IMG/VR virus record: IMGVR_UViG_3300031857_001766
Coordinates: 1 to 20,059 of that record
Source of the DNA: a virus
Strand: one strand, 5' to 3'
Length of the DNA stretch: 20,059 nt
Of the stretch, positions 581-14,141 are shown in pieces. The position numbers and the translations under genes were made by a program. A model generated the notes under the pieces. It had not been told where the DNA came from, did no database searches, and saw only the letters and a list, made by a program, of their open reading frames with translations. How positions within the stretch are numbered: the first letter of the stretch is position 1; each line of letters begins with the position of its first letter.

Positions 581-763
581 ATGAAACAAGGTGGCAAGCG
601 CGGCGTTGGAGCCGCAATCAAAGGGTTCGGTGCTGTGATGTCCGAGAGCACTGAACAGGCCAAGAAGCCGGTGCCGGTGGACGTCAACTTTGACTCGCAA
701 AAGAATGCGGGTTCGGTTGAGAATCCCCCGACCAAGCGCATTCCGCAGCCGACCAGCTGGTAA
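581..763 (+). CDS. Small hypothetical protein, 60 residues
   Basis: This is a short gene with a strong Shine-Dalgarno (AAGGAG at 569-574, 6 bases before the ATG). The N-terminal half is Gly/Lys-rich (MKQGGKRGVGAAIKGFGAVM) and the C-terminal half is hydrophilic and Pro-rich, ending IPQPTSW. No domain is recognisable. Its TAA stop shares one base with the ATG of the adaptor-like gene (TAATG at 761-765). Translation is therefore probably coupled, and the protein likely belongs to the same late virion operon. The good binding site and exact packing between neighbours support it being real; its role is unknown. Confidence 0.75.
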   Translation: MKQGGKRGVGAAIKGFGAVMSESTEQAKKPVPVDVNFDSQKNAGSVENPPTKRIPQPTSW

Positions 764-1440
764 TGCCCACGTCCGGAACAACCACGTTCGATCTGGACGT
801 GGATGAGCTGATCGCCGAAGCGTATGAGCGCTGCGGTCTTCAAGCTCGTGCAGGCTACGACATCAAAACGGCTCGCCGTTCCTTGAACCTCATGTTCTTG
901 GATTGGGCGAGCCGTGGCCTGAACCTCTGGACGATTGAACAACGCACGCTGGCATTGACGGCGGGAGTGTACGAGTACAACCTCCCGTTGGATACTGTCA
1001 ACGTGCTCGAAGCCGTGATCCGCTCGAACGTGAACGGTGTCCAAACAGACATCACGTTGAATCGTTTCAGCCGCGCCGAGTGGCTGCACACGCCGGTCAA
1101 GATCAGCACACAGTCAAGGCCTGCTCAGTTCTACGTGCAGCGCACGATCACACCGCAGGTGTACTTCTACCCCAACCCGGATGATTCGGTGGCCTACACG
1201 TTCGTGTATTACGCCATCAGGCGCATTCAGGATGCGGGGGCATACACCAACACGACGGACATCAACTTCCGTTTCCTGCCGTGTCTGGCATCGGGATTGG
1301 CCTACTACATCTCGATGAAGCGCGCGCCGGAGCGCATGACGATGCTCAAGCAGATTTACGAAGAGGACTTCCTGCGTGCTGCGCAGGAGGACCGCGATAT
1401 CGCCAGCGTGTATCTGGTTCCTGACCGGACGATGGCATAA
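763..1440 (+). CDS. Putative head-tail adaptor (neck) protein 1
   Basis: The product has 225 residues. The N-terminal region (about 10-60) is helical, with FDLDVDELIAEAYERCG followed by TARRSLNLMFLDWASRGLNLW. A beta-rich middle (about 60-165) has repeated short strands such as GVYEYNLP and PQVYFYPNPD, and a helical C-terminus carries ERMTMLKQIYEEDF. This helix/beta/helix plan and the size fit head-tail adaptor proteins of the P22 gp4, T7 gp11 or SU10 adaptor type, which form the ring under the portal. The assignment rests on pattern and on a second adaptor-like gene close by (1763-2443), not on a search. No Shine-Dalgarno precedes the start; it overlaps the previous stop (TAATG), so it is probably translated by coupling. 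A general virion structural protein of another fold is the alternative. Confidence 0.7.
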   Translation: MPTSGTTTFDLDVDELIAEAYERCGLQARAGYDIKTARRSLNLMFLDWASRGLNLWTIEQRTLALTAGVYEYNLPLDTVNVLEAVIRSNVNGVQTDITLNRFSRAEWLHTPVKISTQSRPAQFYVQRTITPQVYFYPNPDDSVAYTFVYYAIRRIQDAGAYTNTTDINFRFLPCLASGLAYYISMKRAPERMTMLKQIYEEDFLRAAQEDRDIASVYLVPDRTMA

Positions 1441-1766
1441 TGTATGCGCAAGGAAGACGATCCCTTGCGCTGTGTGACCGTTGTAACCAGCGGTTCTTTC
1501 TCAGTGAGCTGAGAAAGGAATGGCAGGGTCTGAAGACCTGCCCGTTTTGCTACGAGCCCAAGCACCCGCAGCTTGAGCCTCGCCGAAATGTCTCGGATGC
1601 AATTGCCCTGCAAGAGCCGCGTCCGCAGCCCAAAGAGCCTTTTGACGTGTACGTCGGCGGCCCGGGCAACTCGATGTTTGCTTCGGTAGGAATGTTTCCG
1701 GACCCAGAGAAGGAACTGGTTCTGGCCCAATGCATGCTTAATTCGGTGACGGTCGTAATCACATGA
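1440..1766 (+). CDS. Small zinc-ribbon protein between the two adaptor genes
   Basis: The product has 108 residues. Two CxxC knuckles, C12-D-R-C15 and C34-P-F-C37, are 18 residues apart, a typical zinc-ribbon arrangement. Around them are LSELRKEWQGL and CYEPKHPQLEPRR, a combination I remember from uncharacterised marine phage proteins next to neck genes. The second half is hydrophilic and Pro-rich (about 42-70) and then more hydrophobic at the C-terminus. Its start overlaps the adaptor-1 stop (TAATG) and its own stop overlaps the next start (ATGA, 1763-1766), so it is locked into translation with both adaptors. Possible roles are a structural zinc-bound virion part or an assembly factor; a DNA-binding regulator is less likely in this place. 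Function unknown. Confidence 0.75.
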   Translation: MYAQGRRSLALCDRCNQRFFLSELRKEWQGLKTCPFCYEPKHPQLEPRRNVSDAIALQEPRPQPKEPFDVYVGGPGNSMFASVGMFPDPEKELVLAQCMLNSVTVVIT

Positions 1767-2443
1767 ACTACACACAGTTCACGGACAACATCAAGAGCTA
1801 CATGGAGATCGACTCCAACGTCTTCACACCGACGGTGTTGGGTAACTTCATTCTTGTCTCTGAGAACCGCATCATGCGGGACGTCGACCTTGACGCGTTC
1901 AAGGAGTACGACGTTGCAACGATCGGCACAACCAATCCCAAGGTACAGGTGCCCAGTGGCTTCCTGTTCCCGCGTTACCTGCAGTACATCCCGACCAATG
2001 GCAACCGCGTCATGCTCGAGCAGCGCGACATCAGCTTCATGACTGAGTACGTGGCCAACACGTCCACCAGCTCGGCGACGCCGAAATACTACGCCTTGTG
2101 GGATCAGACCACGCTCTACATTGCACCTGCGCTGACAGGATCGTTGAATTACCAGTTGGAGCTGGCGTACTTCCGCCGTCCGACGCAACTGTCAGCCGCC
2201 AATCCCAACACATGGATTTCGGACAACGCACCGGAAGTGCTGACCTATGCTGTGTTGGTAGAAGCGTACCTGTTCACCAAAGGTCCGCAGGAAATGATTG
2301 GTCAGTTCCAGCAGCGTTACAACGACGCTGTGGCCAAGTTGGCAGCAGAGCAGCAAGGTCGCGGACGTCGCGACGAATACCGCGATGGAATGCTCCGCGT
2401 TCCGTTGGTCTCGAATCCCCCGCCGTATGCGCGTGGCGTTTAA
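1763..2443 (+). CDS. Putative head-tail adaptor (neck) protein 2, SU10-adaptor-like
   Basis: The product has 226 residues. The N-terminus, MNYTQFTDNIKSYMEIDSN followed by FILVSENRIMRDVDLDAFKE, has the two-helix start I associate with adaptor proteins of short-tailed phages, in which a Q/N-rich helix leads to an E-x-R-I segment. A beta-rich middle follows (about 50-150), with PSGFLFPRYLQY, TPKYYALWDQTTLYIAP and YQLELAYFRRP. The C-terminal helices carry TYAVLVEAYLF and QRYNDAVAKLAAEQQ. These features fit the SU10/P22 gp4-type adaptor class, which joins portal and tail; the match is from memory and needs a profile search. The start overlaps the zinc-ribbon gene's stop by four bases (ATGA). The C-terminal tail is Arg/Pro-rich. 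Confidence 0.75.
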   Translation: MNYTQFTDNIKSYMEIDSNVFTPTVLGNFILVSENRIMRDVDLDAFKEYDVATIGTTNPKVQVPSGFLFPRYLQYIPTNGNRVMLEQRDISFMTEYVANTSTSSATPKYYALWDQTTLYIAPALTGSLNYQLELAYFRRPTQLSAANPNTWISDNAPEVLTYAVLVEAYLFTKGPQEMIGQFQQRYNDAVAKLAAEQQGRGRRDEYRDGMLRVPLVSNPPPYARGV

Positions 2444-2924: not shown

Positions 2925-4007
2925 GCCGATGCGACAGTAGCGTTTGACGGATGGAATTCCGCTCTTAGCTGGGGTCAGCAGGGGTGGGGAAACGGTTCAT
3001 CCTCCGTTTCGGCTACTGGATCGGTCAACAGCGTCAGCTTCTTGATTGGAGCGGATGCGACAGTAGCGTTTGATGGTTGGAATTCGGTAGTTGGTTGGGG
3101 GCAGCAAGGCTGGGGCGATGCAGCGTCGTTTGTCTCGGCCACGGGATCGGTCAACAGCGTCACGGTGCAGGTCAACATTGACGAAGAGGTCAGTGGGGTA
3201 TCCGCAACGGGCAGTGTTGGAACGGTTTCGATTCAGGTAAATGAAGACGTTGAGGTCAGTGCAGTAGTAGGAACAGGATCGATTGGCAGTGTTTCGATTC
3301 AGGTAAATGACAGTATTGAAGTTAGTGGGCTGGTAGGGACACTGTCGGTCAACAGCGTTTCGCTTCAGATAGACGACGGTTTTGAAGTAGCTGGGGTGTC
3401 GGCGACGGGTGCAATTGGCACTGTCGTAGCGCAAATCGACACCAGTTTTACTGTGACAGGGCTTGTGGGAACGGGTTCTGTCAACAGCGTAGAGCCTCAA
3501 GTAGGCGACTCCGTAGAGGTATCGGGGCTGTCAGCAACAGGTTCGGTTAACAGCGTGTCCATCAGCTTGAGCATGGACGTGGCGGTGACCGGCGTAGTAG
3601 GAACAGGCGTCATTGCCGGGGTTGTGTTGAACAAGTCCGTCAATGCCACTGGAGTGGTGGGAACGGGGTCGGTCAACAGCGTCACACCGGCGATCGACAC
3701 CAACGTGTCTGTGACCGGCGTTACGGCGACGGGCTCGGTCAACAGCGTAGTGATTCAGACGGTGACGGTGGTATCTGTCACTGGAGTTTCAGCGGTAGGT
3801 TCGGTAAACTCGGTCCTGATTTGGACCAAGGACAACAACGTATACAGCCCGGGATGGACGATTGATAGCAGCACGCAAAGTCCAAGCTGGGTGCAGGACA
3901 GCAGCACACAGAGCCCGACATGGACGGCAGATAGCAGCACACAAAGTCCGAGCTGGGTAACGGATTCTTCAGTTCAGGCTCCGGCTTGGACCAAACTTGC
4001 GGCATAG
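2922..4007 (+). CDS. Tandem-repeat beta protein (22- and 11-residue repeats), TTG start, probable fibre
   Basis: The product has 361 residues and is built almost entirely from repeats. Residues 2-43 and 44-85 are a near-identical 42-residue duplication (ADATVAFDGWNS, WGQQGWG). From 71 to about 310 a 22-residue unit (VSATGSVNSVSIQVxxxxEV) repeats eleven times, with one unit of 20 residues; a twelfth copy of the core sits at 29. From 301 to 356 six tryptophans are spaced exactly 11 residues apart around DSSTQSP. The regular alternation of small and Val residues predicts an elongated beta structure. Similar V-T-G-V-x-A-T-G-x-V-G-x-V proteins occur in aquatic phages as fibre-like virion proteins (memory). 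The frame has no ATG near its beginning; TTG at 2922, preceded by the weak purine-rich AAGGTGGG, is the best start. A fibre or surface role is inference. Confidence 0.75.
   Translation: MADATVAFDGWNSALSWGQQGWGNGSSSVSATGSVNSVSFLIGADATVAFDGWNSVVGWGQQGWGDAASFVSATGSVNSVTVQVNIDEEVSGVSATGSVGTVSIQVNEDVEVSAVVGTGSIGSVSIQVNDSIEVSGLVGTLSVNSVSLQIDDGFEVAGVSATGAIGTVVAQIDTSFTVTGLVGTGSVNSVEPQVGDSVEVSGLSATGSVNSVSISLSMDVAVTGVVGTGVIAGVVLNKSVNATGVVGTGSVNSVTPAIDTNVSVTGVTATGSVNSVVIQTVTVVSVTGVSAVGSVNSVLIWTKDNNVYSPGWTIDSSTQSPSWVQDSSTQSPTWTADSSTQSPSWVTDSSVQAPAWTKLAA
2925..3176 (+). repeat. 126-bp direct tandem duplication in the repeat protein
   Basis: Codons 2-43 and 44-85 are two copies of one 126-bp unit. Both begin GCNGATGCGACAGTAGCGTTTGA-like and keep the WGQQGWG and ATGSVNSV coding stretches. 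DNA identity is high, which suggests a fairly recent in-frame duplication. Confidence 0.85.
3132..3851 (+). repeat. Array of 66-bp repeats encoding the 22-residue unit
   Basis: Eleven consecutive units of 66 bp (one of 60 bp) encode variants of VSATGSVNSV plus a variable 12-residue half. The core TCGGTCAACAGCGT recurs almost unchanged in many units, while other units have diverged (for example GGCAGTGTTGGAACG). Old and young copies are therefore mixed, as expected from repeated slippage or unequal recombination. Confidence 0.85.
3822..3989 (+). repeat. 33-bp repeats encoding W-x(10) units
   Basis: Six Trp codons fall exactly 33 bp apart (protein residues 301, 312, 323, 334, 345, 356), with DSSTQSP-type sequence between them. 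The DNA AGCAGCACNCAAAGNCC recurs. The period is half that of the upstream 66-bp array. Confidence 0.85.
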
Positions 4008-5052: not shown

Positions 5053-5445
5053 ATGGCTAACCCCAATATCGTCAACGTAACAACCATATACGGTACGACG
5101 ACCTACTACACCCCATCAGGCACGACTGCGGTTGTTCTGCTGCCTAATGCCGCTTCCTCTGGCAAGGTCTACAAGATCAACCAGATCGTCGCAGCTAACA
5201 CGACTGGAACAGCAGCTAACGCCACGGTGTCGATCTACAGCAACGGCGCTGTGGCACAAGGCTCTGCCCCATCGGGTGGTACGGCGTACCCGGTGGCTTC
5301 AGCTATCTCGGTTCCGGCCAACGCTTCGCTGATCTGTGTGGACAAGACAACCGCGATCTACCTGATGGAAGGCACTTCAATCTCCATCACTTCCGGCACG
5401 GCCAGTGCGCTGACCTTTTCGATCTCCTACGAAGACATCTCCTAA
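5053..5445 (+). CDS. Small conserved beta-rich virion protein
   Basis: The product has 130 residues. It begins MANPNIVNVTTIYGTTTYY and continues with AASSGKVYKINQIVAANTTG (about 34-53), GGTAYPVASAISVPANASL (about 75-93) and DKTTAIYLMEGTSI; it ends with an SYEDIS tail. I remember proteins of this exact plan as frequent, unnamed members of aquatic phage structural clusters, next to fibre genes. A single beta-sandwich is likely. A strong Shine-Dalgarno, AAGGAG at 5042-5047, precedes the ATG. Its place between a fibre and a large adhesin suggests a fibre-base, capping or decoration protein, but no function is established. Confidence 0.8.
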   Translation: MANPNIVNVTTIYGTTTYYTPSGTTAVVLLPNAASSGKVYKINQIVAANTTGTAANATVSIYSNGAVAQGSAPSGGTAYPVASAISVPANASLICVDKTTAIYLMEGTSISITSGTASALTFSISYEDIS

Positions 5446-5454
5446 GAGGCAGCC

Positions 5455-8019
5455 ATGCCAATCAACGGCTACCTTGGTAATGTAATCAGCGCAACTGCAC
5501 CGACTGTCAACAGCGGTGTGGCAAGCGGTATCTTTACGCTTGAAGAACAGATGCAAGCTGCGGGAACGTGGCCTGTTGGCGGCTATTACCTCATCAGCCG
5601 CAGTGTGCGGATTCGTGCGTCTGCGTCTGCCTATTTCAGTCGGACGCCTTCAAGCGCAACCAATCGTTCAACATGGACATATAGTGCGTGGATTAAAAAA
5701 TCACCGCTTGACTACAATCAATCACTTACTTTACTAAGTGCAGGTTCTTTTGGCAGTGATTTATTCACCATTCAAGTAACGGACAATGGCCTCTCTGTAC
5801 CATGTATTGCTGTATATGGGCAAATTAGTGGAAGTGCTGTATTAAACATAGCAGAAACACCTGCTAGACGCGATCCAAGCGCATGGTTTCATTTAGTGGT
5901 GGTACTTGATACCACTCAAGCCACTGCATCTAACCGGCTGAAGTTGTATTACAACGGGGCGCAAGTCACTGCGCTTACAACGGCAACCTATCCAAACCAA
6001 AATACCACTTTTGCAATAAATAACAATCAAGCAACAGCAATTGGGGCAAGGGCTGGCGGCGGTGCGCCGTATTACGACGGCTACCTAACCGAAATCAACT
6101 TTGTTGACGGTCAAGCCTTAACACCCACCAGCTTTGGCGCAACAGACGCTGTGACCGGCGTATGGAATCCCATTCGCTACACCGGAACGTATGGAACGAA
6201 TGGCTTCTATCTGAACTTCAGCGACAACAGCGGTGCTACTGCCACAACCATCGGCAAGGACTCAAGCGGCAACGGCAACAACTGGACACCGAACAACATC
6301 AGCGTGACCGCTGGCACGACCTACGACAGCATGGTTGATGTGCCAACCAACTACGGCAGCGATACAGGTGCTGGTGGTGAGGTGCGTGGTGACTACTGCA
6401 CATTCAATCCTTTGAATGCTACCGACACGACATTTTCAAACGGTAATTTGCGGATGGTTACGGCATCGCCGGGGTATGGCAGACCGCATCTATCCACATT
6501 TGGAATTGCGTCAGGGCAAAAGTTTTATGCTGAATTTGTAGTGACAAGTGTTGGCGCTTCAAGTGATGTAACGATAGGCATCGACGATGGCTCTATAGTT
6601 CCTGCGTATTATTCAAATAGTGGATCAACTTCTGGTTTGCCAGCAAATTTTCGTGGCTATCGTAATGGTGGCGGCACTTATGTTGGCTCAACTTATACAT
6701 CAGGATCGCCCGGAATATCCTATACAAACGGCAACACAATCAGCGTAGCCGTTGATAGGTCTGCAAACCAAATTACTTACTACAAAAACGGTTCATCCGT
6801 CTACACTCAAAGCATAGCAAGTAGTGTTGATCAGTATTATTTGTGCGTGATGACCTTTACTGGCTCGGCGGATTTGACATTGAACGCCGGGCAGACTGCA
6901 TTTTCCTACACCGCCCCATCAGGCTTCAAAGCCCTCTGCACACAGAACCTGCCCACGCCGACGATCAGCAACGGCGCGAACTACATGGCGGCAACGCTGT
7001 GGACAGGAACAGGGGTAGGTTCTAGGGCAATTACAAACACTTCTAATGGTGTTTCATTCCAACCTGATTGGGTATGGATCAAAAGTAGATCGGCTGCCTA
7101 TTCCCATCAAACAAACGATTCTGTTCGTGGTGCAACTAACGGTTGCCTTTACACAGATTTAACAAATGCTGTTGATGCTAACTTTGGCATAACAAGTTTT
7201 GATGCTAGTGGATTTACGCTTGGGAATACTGCTTCGTTAATTTCTTCTTCTTTTGCTTCACAAAATGGTAGTGGCACAACCTTTGTGGGTTGGCAATGGA
7301 AAGCAAGCGGATCAACCGTATCCAACACGGTGGGAAGCATCACTAGCACGGTCAATGCAAATACGACCGCTGGCTTTAGCATATTGACTTACACGGGTAA
7401 CGGAACTGTTGGAGCAACTGTTGGCCACGGATTAGGCGCAACGCCCGGAATGGTAATTGTAAAAAGCAGAAGTGCAACAGCAGATTGGCCTGTTAAAATT
7501 TTGCCGTATATGACCGGTGGCCAAAGATTAGAATTAAGTACAACTAACGCAATAACAACCGAAGCCGCAGGGTCTGGTAGTTTATGGAACGCAACAAACC
7601 CAAATAGCACAGTAATCACGCTTGGCAATCAAGCAATGACAAATACTAATGGCACTACCTATGTCGCCTATTGCTTTGCTCCCATCACGGGCTACAGCGC
7701 GTTTGGTTCGTACACTGGCAATGGAAGTACGGATGGGCCTTTTGTGTTTACCAATATGAGGCCAAGATGGTTGATGTTCAAAAGAACGGATACCACCAAT
7801 AATTGGATTATGTACGACACATCACGCAGCACATATAACGCCGCCCAAAACTTCTTATATCCTGACCTTGCAAACACAGAAGGCACTGGCGTTTATATTG
7901 ATTTTGTTTCCAATGGCTTTAAGTTGCGAGACACAAACGCTATTTTTAACGCCAGCGGCGGCACATACATCTACGCTGCCTTCGCAGAAAACCCCTTCAC
8001 GATTAGCAGAGCGAGGTAA
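5455..8019 (+). CDS. Large multidomain adhesin: N-terminal anchor, LamG-like, SPRY-like, three-module C-terminus
   Basis: The product has 854 residues. Residues 1-42 hold an anchor-like segment, SGIFTLEEQ then AGTWPVGG, that is also found on the polyglycine adhesin. About 48-225 is LamG/concanavalin-like: WTYSAWIKK, WFHLVVVLD, RLKLYYNGAQV, DGYLTEINFVDGQ. About 330-495 looks SPRY-like: FYAEFVVTS, DVTIGIDDG, TISVAVDRSANQITYYKNG. The last third has three related modules, starting QPDWVWIKSRS (536), TPGMVIVKSRS (663) and RPRWLMFKRTD (769). Such proteins probably bind surface glycans on the host (inference from domain type). GAGG at 5446-5449 sets the start. From about 5640 to 7900 the GC is much lower than around it (hand counts of single 60-base lines: 40% at 5701 and 35% at 7141, against 68% at 11701), pointing to an imported adhesin cassette. 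Confidence 0.8.
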   Translation: MPINGYLGNVISATAPTVNSGVASGIFTLEEQMQAAGTWPVGGYYLISRSVRIRASASAYFSRTPSSATNRSTWTYSAWIKKSPLDYNQSLTLLSAGSFGSDLFTIQVTDNGLSVPCIAVYGQISGSAVLNIAETPARRDPSAWFHLVVVLDTTQATASNRLKLYYNGAQVTALTTATYPNQNTTFAINNNQATAIGARAGGGAPYYDGYLTEINFVDGQALTPTSFGATDAVTGVWNPIRYTGTYGTNGFYLNFSDNSGATATTIGKDSSGNGNNWTPNNISVTAGTTYDSMVDVPTNYGSDTGAGGEVRGDYCTFNPLNATDTTFSNGNLRMVTASPGYGRPHLSTFGIASGQKFYAEFVVTSVGASSDVTIGIDDGSIVPAYYSNSGSTSGLPANFRGYRNGGGTYVGSTYTSGSPGISYTNGNTISVAVDRSANQITYYKNGSSVYTQSIASSVDQYYLCVMTFTGSADLTLNAGQTAFSYTAPSGFKALCTQNLPTPTISNGANYMAATLWTGTGVGSRAITNTSNGVSFQPDWVWIKSRSAAYSHQTNDSVRGATNGCLYTDLTNAVDANFGITSFDASGFTLGNTASLISSSFASQNGSGTTFVGWQWKASGSTVSNTVGSITSTVNANTTAGFSILTYTGNGTVGATVGHGLGATPGMVIVKSRSATADWPVKILPYMTGGQRLELSTTNAITTEAAGSGSLWNATNPNSTVITLGNQAMTNTNGTTYVAYCFAPITGYSAFGSYTGNGSTDGPFVFTNMRPRWLMFKRTDTTNNWIMYDTSRSTYNAAQNFLYPDLANTEGTGVYIDFVSNGFKLRDTNAIFNASGGTYIYAAFAENPFTISRAR

Positions 8020-8021
8020 CA

Positions 8022-8534
8022 ATGTTTTATCGCGCAGCATCAAACCAGTACATAGTTGAACAGGCTCCGTTCACTATTGACGGTACGGGCTACCCGGCTG
8101 ACTGGCTGAACAAGGCTTCGGCCGAGGACAAAGCCACACTGGGGCTGGTTGAGGTGACCTACGAAGGAACGCGGGAAGATGACCGCTTCTACTGGGTGAC
8201 CGAGAACCGCAACGGCGCTGTGATCAGCTACACCAACACCGCCAAGGACTTGGCTGCACTGAAGGCGCAGTGGAAGGCCCAGATCAACCAAAACGCCTAC
8301 ACAATGCTTCTACCCAGCGACTGGATGGTGGTCAAGGCTGTTGAGACTTCGACGGCTGTGGCGGCTGATTGGACGACCTACCGCGCTGCTGTACGTACTG
8401 CGGCTGCTACGGCTGTGGCTGCCATTGAAGCTGCGGCGGATGTTCCTGCCCTGCAAGCGGCTGTTCAAGTGACTTGGCCGAACGACCCCAACTTCGTTGC
8501 TCCGACCGAAACCGATACCCAGCAACAGGCGTAA
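8022..8534 (+). CDS. Tail-fibre assembly-like protein
   Basis: The product has 170 residues. The N-terminal part is a short beta domain (GTGYPADWLNKAS, VEVTYEGTREDDRFYWVTE). From about 75 it is helical and Ala-rich, with KAQWKAQINQNAYTMLLPSDWMVVK and later DWTTYRAAVRTAAATAVAAI. An R/K-rich helix followed by a LLxxxDW turn and a W-x-x-(Y/W)-R-x-x-(V/L)-R helix is the hallmark I know from phage tail fibre assembly chaperones of the Phage_tail_APC/DUF4376 type. It sits directly between two adhesin genes, as chaperones often do. GAGG at 8013-8016 is its binding site, overlapping the end of the upstream gene. It could instead be a minor structural part of the fibre. Confidence 0.7.
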   Translation: MFYRAASNQYIVEQAPFTIDGTGYPADWLNKASAEDKATLGLVEVTYEGTREDDRFYWVTENRNGAVISYTNTAKDLAALKAQWKAQINQNAYTMLLPSDWMVVKAVETSTAVAADWTTYRAAVRTAAATAVAAIEAAADVPALQAAVQVTWPNDPNFVAPTETDTQQQA

Positions 8535-8536
8535 AC

Positions 8537-10318
8537 ATGGATTACTCTGGCCGAATCATCACCAAGAACCCTACTGCTCCGACAAAGAGCAGTGCATCAG
8601 GCATATGGACGCTTGATGAAGCCACGCAGTACATCAAGGCGGGCACATGGCCAATAGGCTTTGGTGATTTTAGCTACCTTGTTATAGGTGGCGCAGGTGG
8701 AGGTGGCGCAGGCGGTGGCGGTGGTGGTGCAGGCGGCTATCGTTCGTTTACAGGGCAAGGCGCGTTACTTAATGTTGCTTACACCCTCACGGTCGGCGCA
8801 GGCGGGGCTGGCGCATCTACTGGGTCGGCTGCAAATGGAACTACGGGTAGTAATTCAGTTTTCAGTACTAGCACTTCTGCCGGTGGTGGCGGTGGCGGTA
8901 GTGGAAACGCTGTTGCCGGGTTGTCTGGCGGATCGGGTGGCGGCGGGTCAGGACTGTTCAACCCTACCGGGGGTACTGGTGGCGCAGGAAATACGCCAAG
9001 CACATCTCCCGTTCAAGGCTACAACGGCGGCGACGGCAGTGGGTCTGCTTCGTACTATGGAAGTGGCGGGGGCGGTGGATCGGGCGGCGCTGGCGTTAAC
9101 GGCACGGGGTCGGGCGGGGGCAATGGCGGTATAGCCACATCTAATTCTATTACCGGCTCGGCTGTTTATTACGCTGGCGGCGGAGGCGCAGGATCGTACA
9201 CCAGCGGCGTAGCAGGTCTTGGTGGCGGCACCGCAACGGCCGGGCAAAAAGGCGGGGCGACCGACGGAAATACTGCTGGAGGCACTGCGTCCAACGCAAC
9301 CGCAAACACGGGCGGCGGGGGTGGCGGTGGCGGATACGGCGCTCCATATATGGCAGGTGGCAACGGTGGTTCGGGTATCGTAATCATCAAAGTGCCTGAC
9401 ACGATTGGCGCAGTATTTTCAAGCGGCGTAACATACACGTTAAGCACTGCTGTTTCGGGCTACAACATTTATTCTGTAACTGCAACTAGCACCAGTAGCG
9501 AGACAGTCACGTTTGCCTTAAGGTTTTTTGCTGAATACCTTGTAGTCGCGGGTGGTGGATCGGGAGCCTCTCGATTTGGCGGCGGTGGCGGTGCTGGAGG
9601 TTATAGAACCGCAGCAAACTTTCTTATAGCTCCCGGAATCGGGTACACGGTTACAGTTGGTGCGGGTGGCGCAGCAGTCAATAGCCCCGGCTCTGTCACA
9701 GATGGCAACTCAGGATCAAACTCAGTCTTTTCTTCCATCACCTCTACAGGTGGTGGTGGCGGCGGGGGAAATGGTGTTGGAAAAAATGGTGGCTCGGGCG
9801 GCGGCGGTGGCGGTGGCGGGAGCGCCGCAGGAACAGGGACATCAGGGCAAGGAAACAACGGTGGTACTGGTGGAGATGGAGTCACTTATCTTGCAGCAGG
9901 TGGTGGTGGTGGAGCATCGTCCATAGGTGGTACCTATAGCGGACCCGCACCGGGCGTCGCAGGGGTTGGAGGAAATGGCACATCAAGCTCCATTACTGGG
10001 TCGGCTGTAACTCGTGCTGGTGGGGGCGGCGGCGGAAGTTTTTCTGGTACAGGCAGTGCCGGTGGAACCGGCGGCGGCGGAACAGGCGCAACAAATAATG
10101 GCGGTGATACAGCCGGAACAGTGAATACGGGCGGTGGCGGTGGCGGTGGCGGAAACGGTTCGGGGGGTGGATCAGGTGTTGTCATCATCAAGATTCCTGA
10201 CACCTACACCGCAACTTTCTCCGGCGGCGTAACGCAGACTTCTAGTACCAGTGGCGGTTACAAGATTTATACTGTTACTGCAACCTCAACAACTAGCGAA
10301 ACCGTTTCGTTTGCATAG
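8537..10318 (+). CDS. Doubled polyglycine adhesin
   Basis: The product has 593 residues and is dominated by glycine. Residues 1-42 carry the same anchor type as the 854-residue protein (SGIWTLDE, AGTWPIG). Two homologous halves follow, about 47-327 and 334-593. Each runs YLV(I/V)xGG, then GGAGGYR, Y(T)xTVGAGGA, GSNSVFS, a poly-Gly core, ITGSAV, then G(I/V)VIIK(V/I)PDT and a closing TATSTxSETVxFA. Poly-Gly segments of this kind pack as polyglycine-II helices in the gp38 adhesin of Salmonella phage S16, where they carry host-specific loops (established for that family; applied here by analogy). The frame is open back to a TTG at 8474, inside the previous gene, but ATG 8537 right after that gene's stop is the better start. 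The gene is very rich in GGN codons. Confidence 0.8.
   Translation: MDYSGRIITKNPTAPTKSSASGIWTLDEATQYIKAGTWPIGFGDFSYLVIGGAGGGGAGGGGGGAGGYRSFTGQGALLNVAYTLTVGAGGAGASTGSAANGTTGSNSVFSTSTSAGGGGGGSGNAVAGLSGGSGGGGSGLFNPTGGTGGAGNTPSTSPVQGYNGGDGSGSASYYGSGGGGGSGGAGVNGTGSGGGNGGIATSNSITGSAVYYAGGGGAGSYTSGVAGLGGGTATAGQKGGATDGNTAGGTASNATANTGGGGGGGGYGAPYMAGGNGGSGIVIIKVPDTIGAVFSSGVTYTLSTAVSGYNIYSVTATSTSSETVTFALRFFAEYLVVAGGGSGASRFGGGGGAGGYRTAANFLIAPGIGYTVTVGAGGAAVNSPGSVTDGNSGSNSVFSSITSTGGGGGGGNGVGKNGGSGGGGGGGGSAAGTGTSGQGNNGGTGGDGVTYLAAGGGGGASSIGGTYSGPAPGVAGVGGNGTSSSITGSAVTRAGGGGGGSFSGTGSAGGTGGGGTGATNNGGDTAGTVNTGGGGGGGGNGSGGGSGVVIIKIPDTYTATFSGGVTQTSSTSGGYKIYTVTATSTTSETVSFA
8675..10315 (+). repeat. Two tandem glycine-rich domains
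   Basis: Copy 1 (about 8675-9517) and copy 2 (about 9536-10315) encode the same domain plan from a YLV strand to a TATST-SETV-FA end. The edges are well conserved while the poly-Gly interiors differ in length and order, so the duplication is old or the interior evolves fast. Confidence 0.8.
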
Positions 10319-10325
10319 GACAATC

Positions 10326-10688
10326 ATGGCGCATTTTGCAAAACTTGATAAAGATAATGTCGTGGTGTTTGTCACCGTCGGCAGGGATGAAGACAACGGC
10401 AAAGAGGCAGAACTGACTGCTCGCACCGGCGATGTTTACAAGCAGACCAGCTACAACACGCTGGGCGGTGTTCATGCTTTAGGGGGTACTCCTTTCCGCA
10501 AAAATTACGCTGGTCTGGGGTACACCTATGATGCGCAGCGTGATGCCTTCATTCCTCCGCAGCCATATCCGTCTTGGACGCTAGATGAAAACACTTGTTT
10601 GTGGTCTCCGCCAACTCCGATGCCAACTGATGACAAGCGTTACATGTGGGATGAAGCCAACCAATCTTGGGATGAGATAACAACGTGA
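10326..10688 (+). CDS. Conserved phage protein (MAHFAKLD...), unknown function
   Basis: The product has 120 residues. Conserved-looking segments are MAHFAKLDKDNVVV, YKQTSYNTLGGVHALGGTPF, RKNYAGLGYTYDAQRDAFIP and PSWTLDENTCLWSPPTPMP, ending YMWDEANQSWDE. I remember this family well from cyanophage and other marine phage genomes, where it is conserved but functionally unassigned and often sits near tail-fibre genes. The frame extends upstream to 10251 in another gene, but ATG 10326 with AGGA at 10317-10320 and 5-base spacing is clearly the start. The repeated Trp/Pro-rich strands suggest a small beta protein, perhaps attached to a fibre (inference). It shares one base with the next gene's ATG (TGATG). 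Confidence 0.85.
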   Translation: MAHFAKLDKDNVVVFVTVGRDEDNGKEAELTARTGDVYKQTSYNTLGGVHALGGTPFRKNYAGLGYTYDAQRDAFIPPQPYPSWTLDENTCLWSPPTPMPTDDKRYMWDEANQSWDEITT

Positions 10689-11067: not shown

Positions 11068-12906
11068 ATGGCGCTGACCAAGGTCTCGTTTGCTGCCGGA
11101 ATTGACAAGCAGGATTCAAAGTACGGAGCCGAGGGCCGCTGGGTAGACTCGGACTACGTTCGCTTTCGCTATGGGTTGCCCGAGCAGATTGGTGGTTGGG
11201 CGGCGTTTTCGGACAAGAACTTGATTGGGGTCTCGCGGGACATCTGGACGTGGACCGCGCTCAACGGCACACCGCAGCTGGCCCTTTCCACCAACAAGAA
11301 GCTCTATGCCTACAACGGCGGCAGCTGGGGAGACATCACCCCGGTCACCAAGACCTCGGTAGGCAAAACCATTACCCCAACCAATGCCTCGACAGTCATC
11401 ACGGTGACCGACACCGCTCATGGCACGAATATCGGGGACATCGTCTCCTTTTCCTCGGTGTCTTCGCCTTTTGGTGGATCGGCAGGTACGACGTACGACA
11501 TTCAGTACGAAGTGCAGACGGTGGTCGACGCGGACAACTACACCGTCAAGTCGCCTGTGACGTTGTCTGGCACAACGCCGGGCACGGCGACGATCAAGTA
11601 CCTGTACCCGATCGGTAATTCGATTGCCTTGTCCAGCTACGGCTGGGGCGCGGGCACATGGGGTACTGGCACGTGGGGCACGCCGCGCACCTCCGGTGTT
11701 TCGCTGCCCCCGCGCATCTGGTCGCTCGACAACTTCGGCGAGAATCTGGTGGCCTGCCCGGCACTTGGCGCGCTGTACCAGTGGTCGCCTATCACGGACG
11801 GCTTGAGCTCTCCGGCCAGCATTGTCAACGGCGCGCCGACTTCCAGTGCCTTCATCCTTGTCTCCACCCCGGACCGCCATTTGGTTTGCTTTGGCACGGA
11901 AGAGACCATCGGTTCCCCTGCTACGCGCGATCCGATGCTGGTGCGCTGGGCGGACACTGAATCCCTGACGGATTGGACGATCACGGCCACCAACAGCGCG
12001 GGCTCGCAGCGGCTGACCGATGGCAACGAGTTGGTGGGCGCGGTGCGCTCGCGCAACCAGACTCTGGTGTTCACCGACAATGCCCTGTACGGCATGCAGT
12101 ACGTGGGCACGCCCTACACCTTTGGGTTTCAGCAGCTGGGCACGAACTGTGGCGGCGTGAGCCAGAACGCAGCGGCCGACGTCAACGGCGTGTGCTTTTG
12201 GATGTCGGCGCAGTCGTTCTTCGTGTTTGACGGTACGGTCAAAAAGCTGCCCTGCTCGGTGCAGGATGCGGTGTTCAACAACTTCAACTACACCCAGCAC
12301 CAGCTGGTGTACGCGGGCCTGAACACGCAGTTTAACGAAGTTACGTGGTTTTACCCGACTGCCAACAGCAATCAGATCGATGGTTTTGTGACCTACAACT
12401 ATGTTGAGAACTGCTGGCAGCAGGGCACGTTGGCGCGGACCGTGTGGCGCGATCGCGGGGTATTTGAGCTGCCGCTGGCCACCAAGTGGGACCCCGACAG
12501 CGTATCCGGGGCCTACCCGACGGTCTCTGGCCTGTCCAACGGCATCAGCATCCTGTACGAACAGGAGACGGGAGATAGCGCCAACGGCGATGAAATCTAC
12601 TCGTATGTGCAGTCGGCGTTCTTTGACATTGCCGACGGTGACAGCATTTCGTTTGTCAAGCGCTTGGTGCCGGACTTCTCGGTGCAGAACGACACGATGG
12701 ACTTCTATGCGGTGTCCCGTGCGTTTTCGATTGCGCCTGACTCGCCCAGCTCGCTCACCCCCTACGAATTTTCTCCGACAACGCAGAAGATTGACACGCG
12801 GATCAGGGGACGTGCGCTGTCGATCAAGATTGAGAGCACCAGTGCCAACAATGGCTGGCGCTTTGGTACGTTGCGTCTGGACATCCAACCTGACGGCATG
12901 CGTTAA
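11068..12906 (+). CDS. Putative tail-nozzle / DNA-stabilisation protein (P22 gp10- or T7 gp12-like)
   Basis: The product has 612 residues and is beta-rich. The N-terminus (FAAGIDKQDSKY, GRWVDSDYVRFRYGLPEQIGGW, about 8-44) is a conserved opening I remember from neck and tail-tube proteins of aquatic short-tailed phages. It continues with blade-like strands (LALSTNKKLYAYNGG) and a likely inserted domain at about 98-180 with a H-G-x-x-x-G-D-x-V-x-F...Y-x-V-x-T-V-x-D-x-D-N-Y pattern. A Trp-Gly stretch, GWGAGTWGTGTWG, is at 192-204. Further strands run to the C-terminus. Size and plan fit a beta-propeller nozzle of the P22 gp10 or T7 gp12 kind that extends the tail below the adaptor (inference). 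A DNA-free structural role is expected. A general virion glycan-binding protein remains possible. Confidence 0.65.
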   Translation: MALTKVSFAAGIDKQDSKYGAEGRWVDSDYVRFRYGLPEQIGGWAAFSDKNLIGVSRDIWTWTALNGTPQLALSTNKKLYAYNGGSWGDITPVTKTSVGKTITPTNASTVITVTDTAHGTNIGDIVSFSSVSSPFGGSAGTTYDIQYEVQTVVDADNYTVKSPVTLSGTTPGTATIKYLYPIGNSIALSSYGWGAGTWGTGTWGTPRTSGVSLPPRIWSLDNFGENLVACPALGALYQWSPITDGLSSPASIVNGAPTSSAFILVSTPDRHLVCFGTEETIGSPATRDPMLVRWADTESLTDWTITATNSAGSQRLTDGNELVGAVRSRNQTLVFTDNALYGMQYVGTPYTFGFQQLGTNCGGVSQNAAADVNGVCFWMSAQSFFVFDGTVKKLPCSVQDAVFNNFNYTQHQLVYAGLNTQFNEVTWFYPTANSNQIDGFVTYNYVENCWQQGTLARTVWRDRGVFELPLATKWDPDSVSGAYPTVSGLSNGISILYEQETGDSANGDEIYSYVQSAFFDIADGDSISFVKRLVPDFSVQNDTMDFYAVSRAFSIAPDSPSSLTPYEFSPTTQKIDTRIRGRALSIKIESTSANNGWRFGTLRLDIQPDGMR

Positions 12907-13808: not shown

Positions 13809-14141
13809 ATGGCCAATAAATACTTCCGTGAAGCACTGATTCCGAGCGCAGCGACTGAAACCACGCTGTACACGGTTCCCACGGATTCGGCAACTGTCGC
13901 TCGTTCCCTGCGCATCACAAATGCAGGTGCTGCAGCGGCAGCGATTACCGTAGTTCAGTATTCTTCAGGTGATGCTACGGCGCATTACCTGCTTAAGTCG
14001 CGCAACTTGTCGATCAACGCGACCTATGACGTCTTGAATGGCGTCCCTCTGGTTCTGGAAGGTGGCGACACGCTCAAGGTCACTTCCAGCATTGCATCGG
14101 TTCATTTCTACCTGTCCTATCTCGAGATGGACAGGACTTAA
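13809..14141 (+). CDS. Small beta-rich virion protein, unknown function
   Basis: The product has 110 residues. It starts MANKYFREALIPSAATETTL and contains ARSLRITNAGAAAAAITVVQ, HYLLKSRNLSINATYDVLNGVPLVLEGGDTL and VHFYLSYLEMDRT. The strands alternate as in a jelly-roll or Ig-like sandwich. I remember near-identical plans from aquatic phage structural clusters but no assigned role. No clear Shine-Dalgarno precedes the ATG (the 9 bases after the previous stop are AT-rich), so re-initiation after the upstream gene is likely. A decoration, tail-tip or cement protein is a reasonable guess only. Confidence 0.75.
   Translation: MANKYFREALIPSAATETTLYTVPTDSATVARSLRITNAGAAAAAITVVQYSSGDATAHYLLKSRNLSINATYDVLNGVPLVLEGGDTLKVTSSIASVHFYLSYLEMDRT

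Follow-up and report, generated by a model that had tools for sequence, protein, structure and literature searches.

Modular tailspikes and tail fibres are built from a conserved N-terminal anchor and an exchanged receptor-binding domain, in such a way that the trees of anchors and heads disagree (PMC10408124). The branched tailspikes of the Ackermannviridae place several receptor-binding proteins on each virion, where N-terminal modules fix the place of each one and the heads are exchanged by recombination (PMC11414711). Phage SU10 carries two fibre types at two places: a nozzle loop whose three tryptophans form a pseudo-threefold arrangement holds the N-termini of its short fibres, and its long fibres dock on the adaptor (PMC9509320).

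The DNA analyzed here (the window) is a stretch of 20,059 bases from an uncultivated virus record. Two of its genes begin with a common segment, and these are the only two copies in the record:

5455-8019, + strand: P0001, 854 aa
5455..5580, + strand: slot-1 anchor, residues 1-42 of P0001, from its likeness to 8537-8659, gene order and pLDDT
5581..8019, + strand: exchangeable body of P0001, LamG-like, SPRY-like and DUF7483, from Pfam, structure matches and the other leaders found on it
6976-7995, + strand: DUF7483 domain of P0001, from Pfam
8537-10318, + strand: P0002, 593 aa
8537..8659, + strand: slot-2 anchor, residues 1-41 of P0002, from its likeness to the P0001 anchor and gene order
8660..10318, + strand: exchangeable body of P0002, Gly_rich_2 (PF21722), from Pfam

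The segment common to residues 6-42 of P0001 and 3-41 of P0002 has 22 of 41 positions identical (54%), and BLASTP between both proteins gave E=1e-5 for this pair, with no second significant match outside the N-terminal segment. Its local alignment scored 85, and none of 20,000 shuffles reached that value (mean 22.5, sd 4.5, maximum 51), so a chance likeness is ruled out and the shared N-terminal segment described in the original prediction is real. At the DNA level, the longest match between the two coding stretches does not exceed 12 bp, which at 54% protein identity also rules out a recent duplication. For P0002, the ATG at 8537 was favoured over an upstream TTG at 8474 because the relatives start at the same point.

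The distribution of the segment was studied with scans based on four sub-alignments, plus P0001 and P0002 scans, that yielded 412 sequences. The segment profile detected 519 ORFs (376 unique) and placed the segment at the protein start (Met within a few residues) with around 15 exceptions that mostly fit an alternative start codon; no protein among the 376 had two copies. Behind the segment the bodies form 56 clusters, and those sampled included tandem laminin G, Gly_rich_2, SBBP propeller, RCC1, fn3 plus propeller, LamG/SPRY/DUF7483 and unclassified types. The segment is a true N-terminal module fused to diverse adhesin-like bodies, as had been anticipated. Most of the 80 IMG/VR loci with a P0001 relative align only from around residue 45, and the relatives devoid of the segment carry short, differing leaders instead, such as MFASKDTLLTRPSG or MSVINATPLLAAAGG. 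When P0001 was modelled with AlphaFold from 44 anchored sequences, the mean pLDDT was 80.7, with values of 35-44 and a single short helix (29-35) in residues 1-40. Residues 1-41 are thus predicted to be unfolded beside a folded body, which rules out for P0001 that the segment belongs to the adhesin fold and agrees with the original view of it as a separate piece.

In the INPHARED collection the anchor was found in phage DSL-LC04 only. As a separate observation, two contigs assigned to bacterial MAGs (L490 and L491; Chitinophagales and Gammaproteobacteria) carry relatives of the small protein P0003, described below, followed by proteins with an anchor-like segment; we propose that they are prophages or misbinned viral contigs.

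The number of segment genes was counted in 319 loci retrieved by anchor, body or P0003 queries, the frequencies of which are not population estimates: 196 had two, 2 had three and 121 had one. Exactly two anchored proteins in 196 of the 319 make it likely that one phage has two host-binding heads, as originally suggested, and the 121 single-anchor loci, possibly including truncated contigs, count against a reading with two slots. In 104 dereplicated genomes with a pair, the 208 anchors were labelled as upstream or downstream from gene position alone. This label changed once on the anchor tree of 208 tips, compared with around 70 times (67-80) in the label shuffles listed. The branch that parts the two classes had an SH-aLRT of 79, the bipartition being the one solid part of trees that are otherwise weak, built as they are from 45 residues. 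Moreover, profiles trained without the tested group predicted the slot correctly for 206 of the 208 anchors. On a tree of 65 DUF7483 domains the slot label changed 20 times, within the range of the shuffles (15-27, mean 21.4), whereas on the tree of the anchors of those same 65 proteins it changed once. The anchor classes track gene order while the DUF7483 bodies do not, and therefore we deal with two slot-specific anchors and exchangeable heads.

The anchors are hence two sequence classes following gene order, and this points to two different cognate slots on the virion. The original prediction held that both segments probably dock to the same site, which would make the two proteins alternatives competing for it. 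The recognizable homology of both anchors, and the fact that a single profile finds both, are in line with a common site, but a shared site would not be expected to keep the classes apart, and they follow gene order almost without exception though bodies move between slots. We therefore regard the common site as unlikely, and the single label change and the held-out predictions above go against that part of the prediction.

The bodies behind the anchors were also compared. P0001 matched DUF7483 (PF24299) in Pfam with 360 bits and SPRY below the threshold, and its model matches SPRY and laminin-G structures. Its body class is also found with other leaders and on slot 2, and the closest relatives of the P0002 body include slot-1 bodies (L115 and L211). 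In the window LamG/DUF7483 is on slot 1 and the Gly-rich body on slot 2, and in L015 the arrangement is the reverse, with body classes set by simple rules in the locus survey. Thus, the earlier statement that the two proteins have nothing in common after the segment holds in the window and fails elsewhere, where the same body class is often behind both anchors. Among 777 anchor pairs at least 88% identical, 133 had bodies less than 35% identical over their first 120 residues. Exchange is not unrestricted: for 131 of 202 bodies, the closest relative from a different genome occupies the same slot. The proposed swap between heads is consequently supported, from the DUF7483 tree, as an evolutionary exchange of bodies between slots, but was not seen as a switch within a genome. 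By similarity the heads show only lectin-like and propeller folds, and they are candidate receptor binders. We found no paper on DUF7483, and none on RCC1/laminin G tail fibres under those terms.

A further gene lies between the two adhesin genes of the window:

8022..8534, + strand: P0006, tail-fibre-assembly-like (Phage_tail_APC, sub-threshold), which goes with DUF7483 bodies

Relatives of P0006 follow DUF7483 bodies in 32 cases, on either slot, and unclassified bodies in 3, with no case after Gly-rich, RCC1 or FN3 bodies, as if this putative assembly protein travelled with the body. Other genes are found in the same position: an enzyme-like 2OG-Fe(II) oxygenase gene in L083 (5324-5944) and, judged by eye, a sulfotransferase- or kinase-like protein in L226 (4252-5997).

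P0006 bears on a second explanation, namely that the segment is an assembly tag, for chaperone binding or trimer formation, and that the virion is contacted elsewhere. A linear segment with one short helix is as expected of such a tag, and a fibre-assembly-like protein is encoded beside P0001. That protein, however, tracks the DUF7483 bodies and not the anchor, being also present in 60 of the 67 P0001-family loci that lack the anchor, and a generic tag leaves two order-bound classes unexplained, so that we consider this explanation improbable. Finally, the conserved 5' end might be preserved chiefly as a stretch of homologous DNA at which recombination exchanges the bodies. This would suit the exchange of bodies behind it and the guidance of recombination by conserved tailspike 5' ends in the Ackermannviridae (PMC11414711), but the two window anchors, with the identity and DNA matches given above, are alike in protein and not in DNA, so that the constraint is on the peptide and there is hardly any chance that this explanation is right.

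Two slot-specific anchors thus remain the preferred reading, and a small protein encoded just upstream of slot 1 is associated with them:

5053..5445, + strand: P0003, 130-aa predicted beta-sandwich, proposed anchor partner or cofactor, from linkage, the reverse test and its model

Of 101 genomes with sufficient sequence, 99 have a P0003 relative upstream of slot 1; the distance has a median of 21 bases and exceeds 1 kb in about a quarter. Within P0001-family loci they were present in 11 of 13 anchored and in none of the 67 unanchored ones; in those 67, relatives of the two adaptor-like proteins and of the nozzle-type protein described below were detected in 9, 13 and 4. In the reverse test, a full anchor was found within 2.6 kb in 57 of 71 P0003 loci with downstream sequence, and in the other 14 the next gene encodes an adhesin-like protein whose start resembles, by eye, the first half of the anchor (GG(F/I)I.PG.NPL and similar), in such a way that an anchor follows P0003 in all 71 when half-anchors are included. 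The small protein at 5053, which the original prediction had named for complex modelling, is accordingly tightly linked to the anchor. The one at 10326 (P0004), named there as well, is rejected as a general partner, with relatives near only 11 of the 104 pairs within the flanks covered (6-8 kb, many neighbours falling outside).

P0003 gave no Pfam match above the cut-off and only a marginal PHROG match. Its model is a beta-sandwich with a pLDDT of 89.8, and among predicted structures it comes closest to small phage proteins, several of which are annotated as virion structural protein; against the PDB, sequence matches were at chance level only and no structural match fell below E 0.001.

The number of P0003 copies and of slot-1 genes varies. 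Locus L298 (770-10164) has extra P0003 copies, each before a further adhesin-like gene, and in four loci the halves of the slot-1 anchor are divided between two successive adhesin-like genes, after which comes the slot-2 gene:

L226, 1867-4200: split slot-1 anchor
L252, 1837-4224: split slot-1 anchor
L356, 1335-3605: split slot-1 anchor
L371, 2229-4544: split slot-1 anchor

In L348 (585-1702) and similar loci, three copies of P0003 are in tandem. The window ORF at 13809-14141 has a counterpart in L036 (13444-13771) that matches the P0003 profile, so that this ORF, close to the nozzle gene, may encode a distantly related P0003 paralog.

The surroundings of the two anchored genes were examined for candidate docks:

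763..2443, + strand: two SU10-adaptor-like proteins (763-1440 and 1763-2443; PF24175) with a small ORF between them
2949..3116, + strand: a pair of three-Trp loops in P0009 that may be further docks, from sequence inspection and inference
11068..12906, + strand: P0007, nozzle-type tail protein (PDB 9nwi and 8zkk; PHROG 3287)
11641..11679, + strand: three-Trp loop GWGAGTWGTGTWG, residues 192-204 of P0007, candidate fibre dock, from comparison with the SU10 loop

P0007 matched 9nwi (1.6e-12), 8zkk ('nozzle gp16', 0.0014) and PHROG 3287 (virion structural), and its relatives in annotated phages include 'stabilization proteins' as well as proteins from phages of Pelagibacter, Roseobacter, Planktothrix and Pseudomonas; it has no sequence match to the SU10 nozzle. 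With adaptor-like proteins upstream and a nozzle-type protein downstream, the anchors are thus in the tail module of a short-tailed phage. Anchored phages contributed 33 nozzle proteins to the alignment, and 20 of these, among them the type of the window, have the three Trp at the corresponding position; several other nozzle proteins have a Tyr version (GYG..YG...YG), two of them from loci where no anchor was detected. As the three-Trp loop is also present in two loci in which no anchor was detected, it is not specific to anchored phages, and this counts against the two-slot reading. By analogy, the three-Trp nozzle loop is suggestive of a fibre dock, and we assign no slot to it.

P0009 (2922-4007) carries two GWN..WGQQGWG three-Trp loops in its first part and, close to the C-terminus, five Trp repeats resembling 'P.W.xDSS(T/V)Q', and tandem loops are also present in a P0009-related protein of DSL-LC04 (L083, 1150-2280) and in others. 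When genomes with sufficient flank were searched by regular expression, 21 of 62 encoded a protein with at least one three-Trp loop upstream of slot 1. On this count the idea that a tandem three-Trp protein is universal there was discarded, and a looser Trp-cluster count failed to separate the rest.

The same organization was found in DSL-LC04 (OR003939), a metagenome-assembled, uncultured phage, which has the same two anchors in order, a nozzle-type protein downstream and a P0003 relative ('putative lectin') just upstream of slot 1. The part of its description considered here (PMC10611076) does not describe the anchors.

Taken together, we consider it quite probable that slot-specific linear anchors mount two adhesins on one tail and that their heads are replaced by recombination. 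A linear virion anchor of around 40 residues would start two tail adhesins of a short-tailed phage, in its slot-1 form on the gene at 5455 and in its slot-2 form on the gene further downstream (8537), and each class would most likely dock its own adhesin, along with any trimer that it may form, at its own place in the adaptor/nozzle region. P0003, encoded just upstream, would be a partner or cofactor of the docking, and one virion could then present two heads simultaneously. The anchors would stay put while recombination replaced the bodies that follow them, in some cases across slots. A wider version is more doubtful, though it is a real possibility: two slot-coded tags, three or more in some lineages, would be read by P0003 and three-aromatic tail loops to mount many adhesin bodies in either slot, the slot-1 tag being split over two consecutive adhesins in some lineages, and the arrangement would be widespread in uncultivated short-tailed phages.

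In uncultivated aquatic phages, the diversity of the heads makes receptor-binding proteins difficult to recognize. A short anchor profile together with P0003 flags such proteins whatever the head and shows their number per phage, providing a natural data set on which heads get exchanged and on how one tail could display two of them simultaneously. Should docking be confirmed, the anchors would be a compact linear attachment code, comparable with the SU10 dock.

As in modular tailspikes (PMC10408124), a conserved N-terminal part is found here with varied heads, the C-terminal heads are exchanged and the trees disagree. The tailspike anchors are regarded as folded domains, at most around 150 aa long, that follow the phage genus, whereas here the anchor is a linear tag of around 40 residues, with two classes that follow gene order within the genome. 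The spikes of the Ackermannviridae are connected with one another through XD/TD domains, whereas here there are short tags; XD/TD domains are not named among the Pfam and PHROG matches of P0001, P0002 and the scanned relatives, the Ackermannviridae domains themselves not being among the queries. The window shares with SU10 the adaptor-like proteins (PF24175), a nozzle-type protein and the three-Trp nozzle loop, but the likeness rests on this loop and the tail genes and not on the sequences of the fibre N-termini, the anchor having no sequence match in the PDB. Modular receptor-binding proteins and multi-spike virions are already established (PMC10408124, PMC11414711); what is new is the two-slot, linear-tag arrangement.
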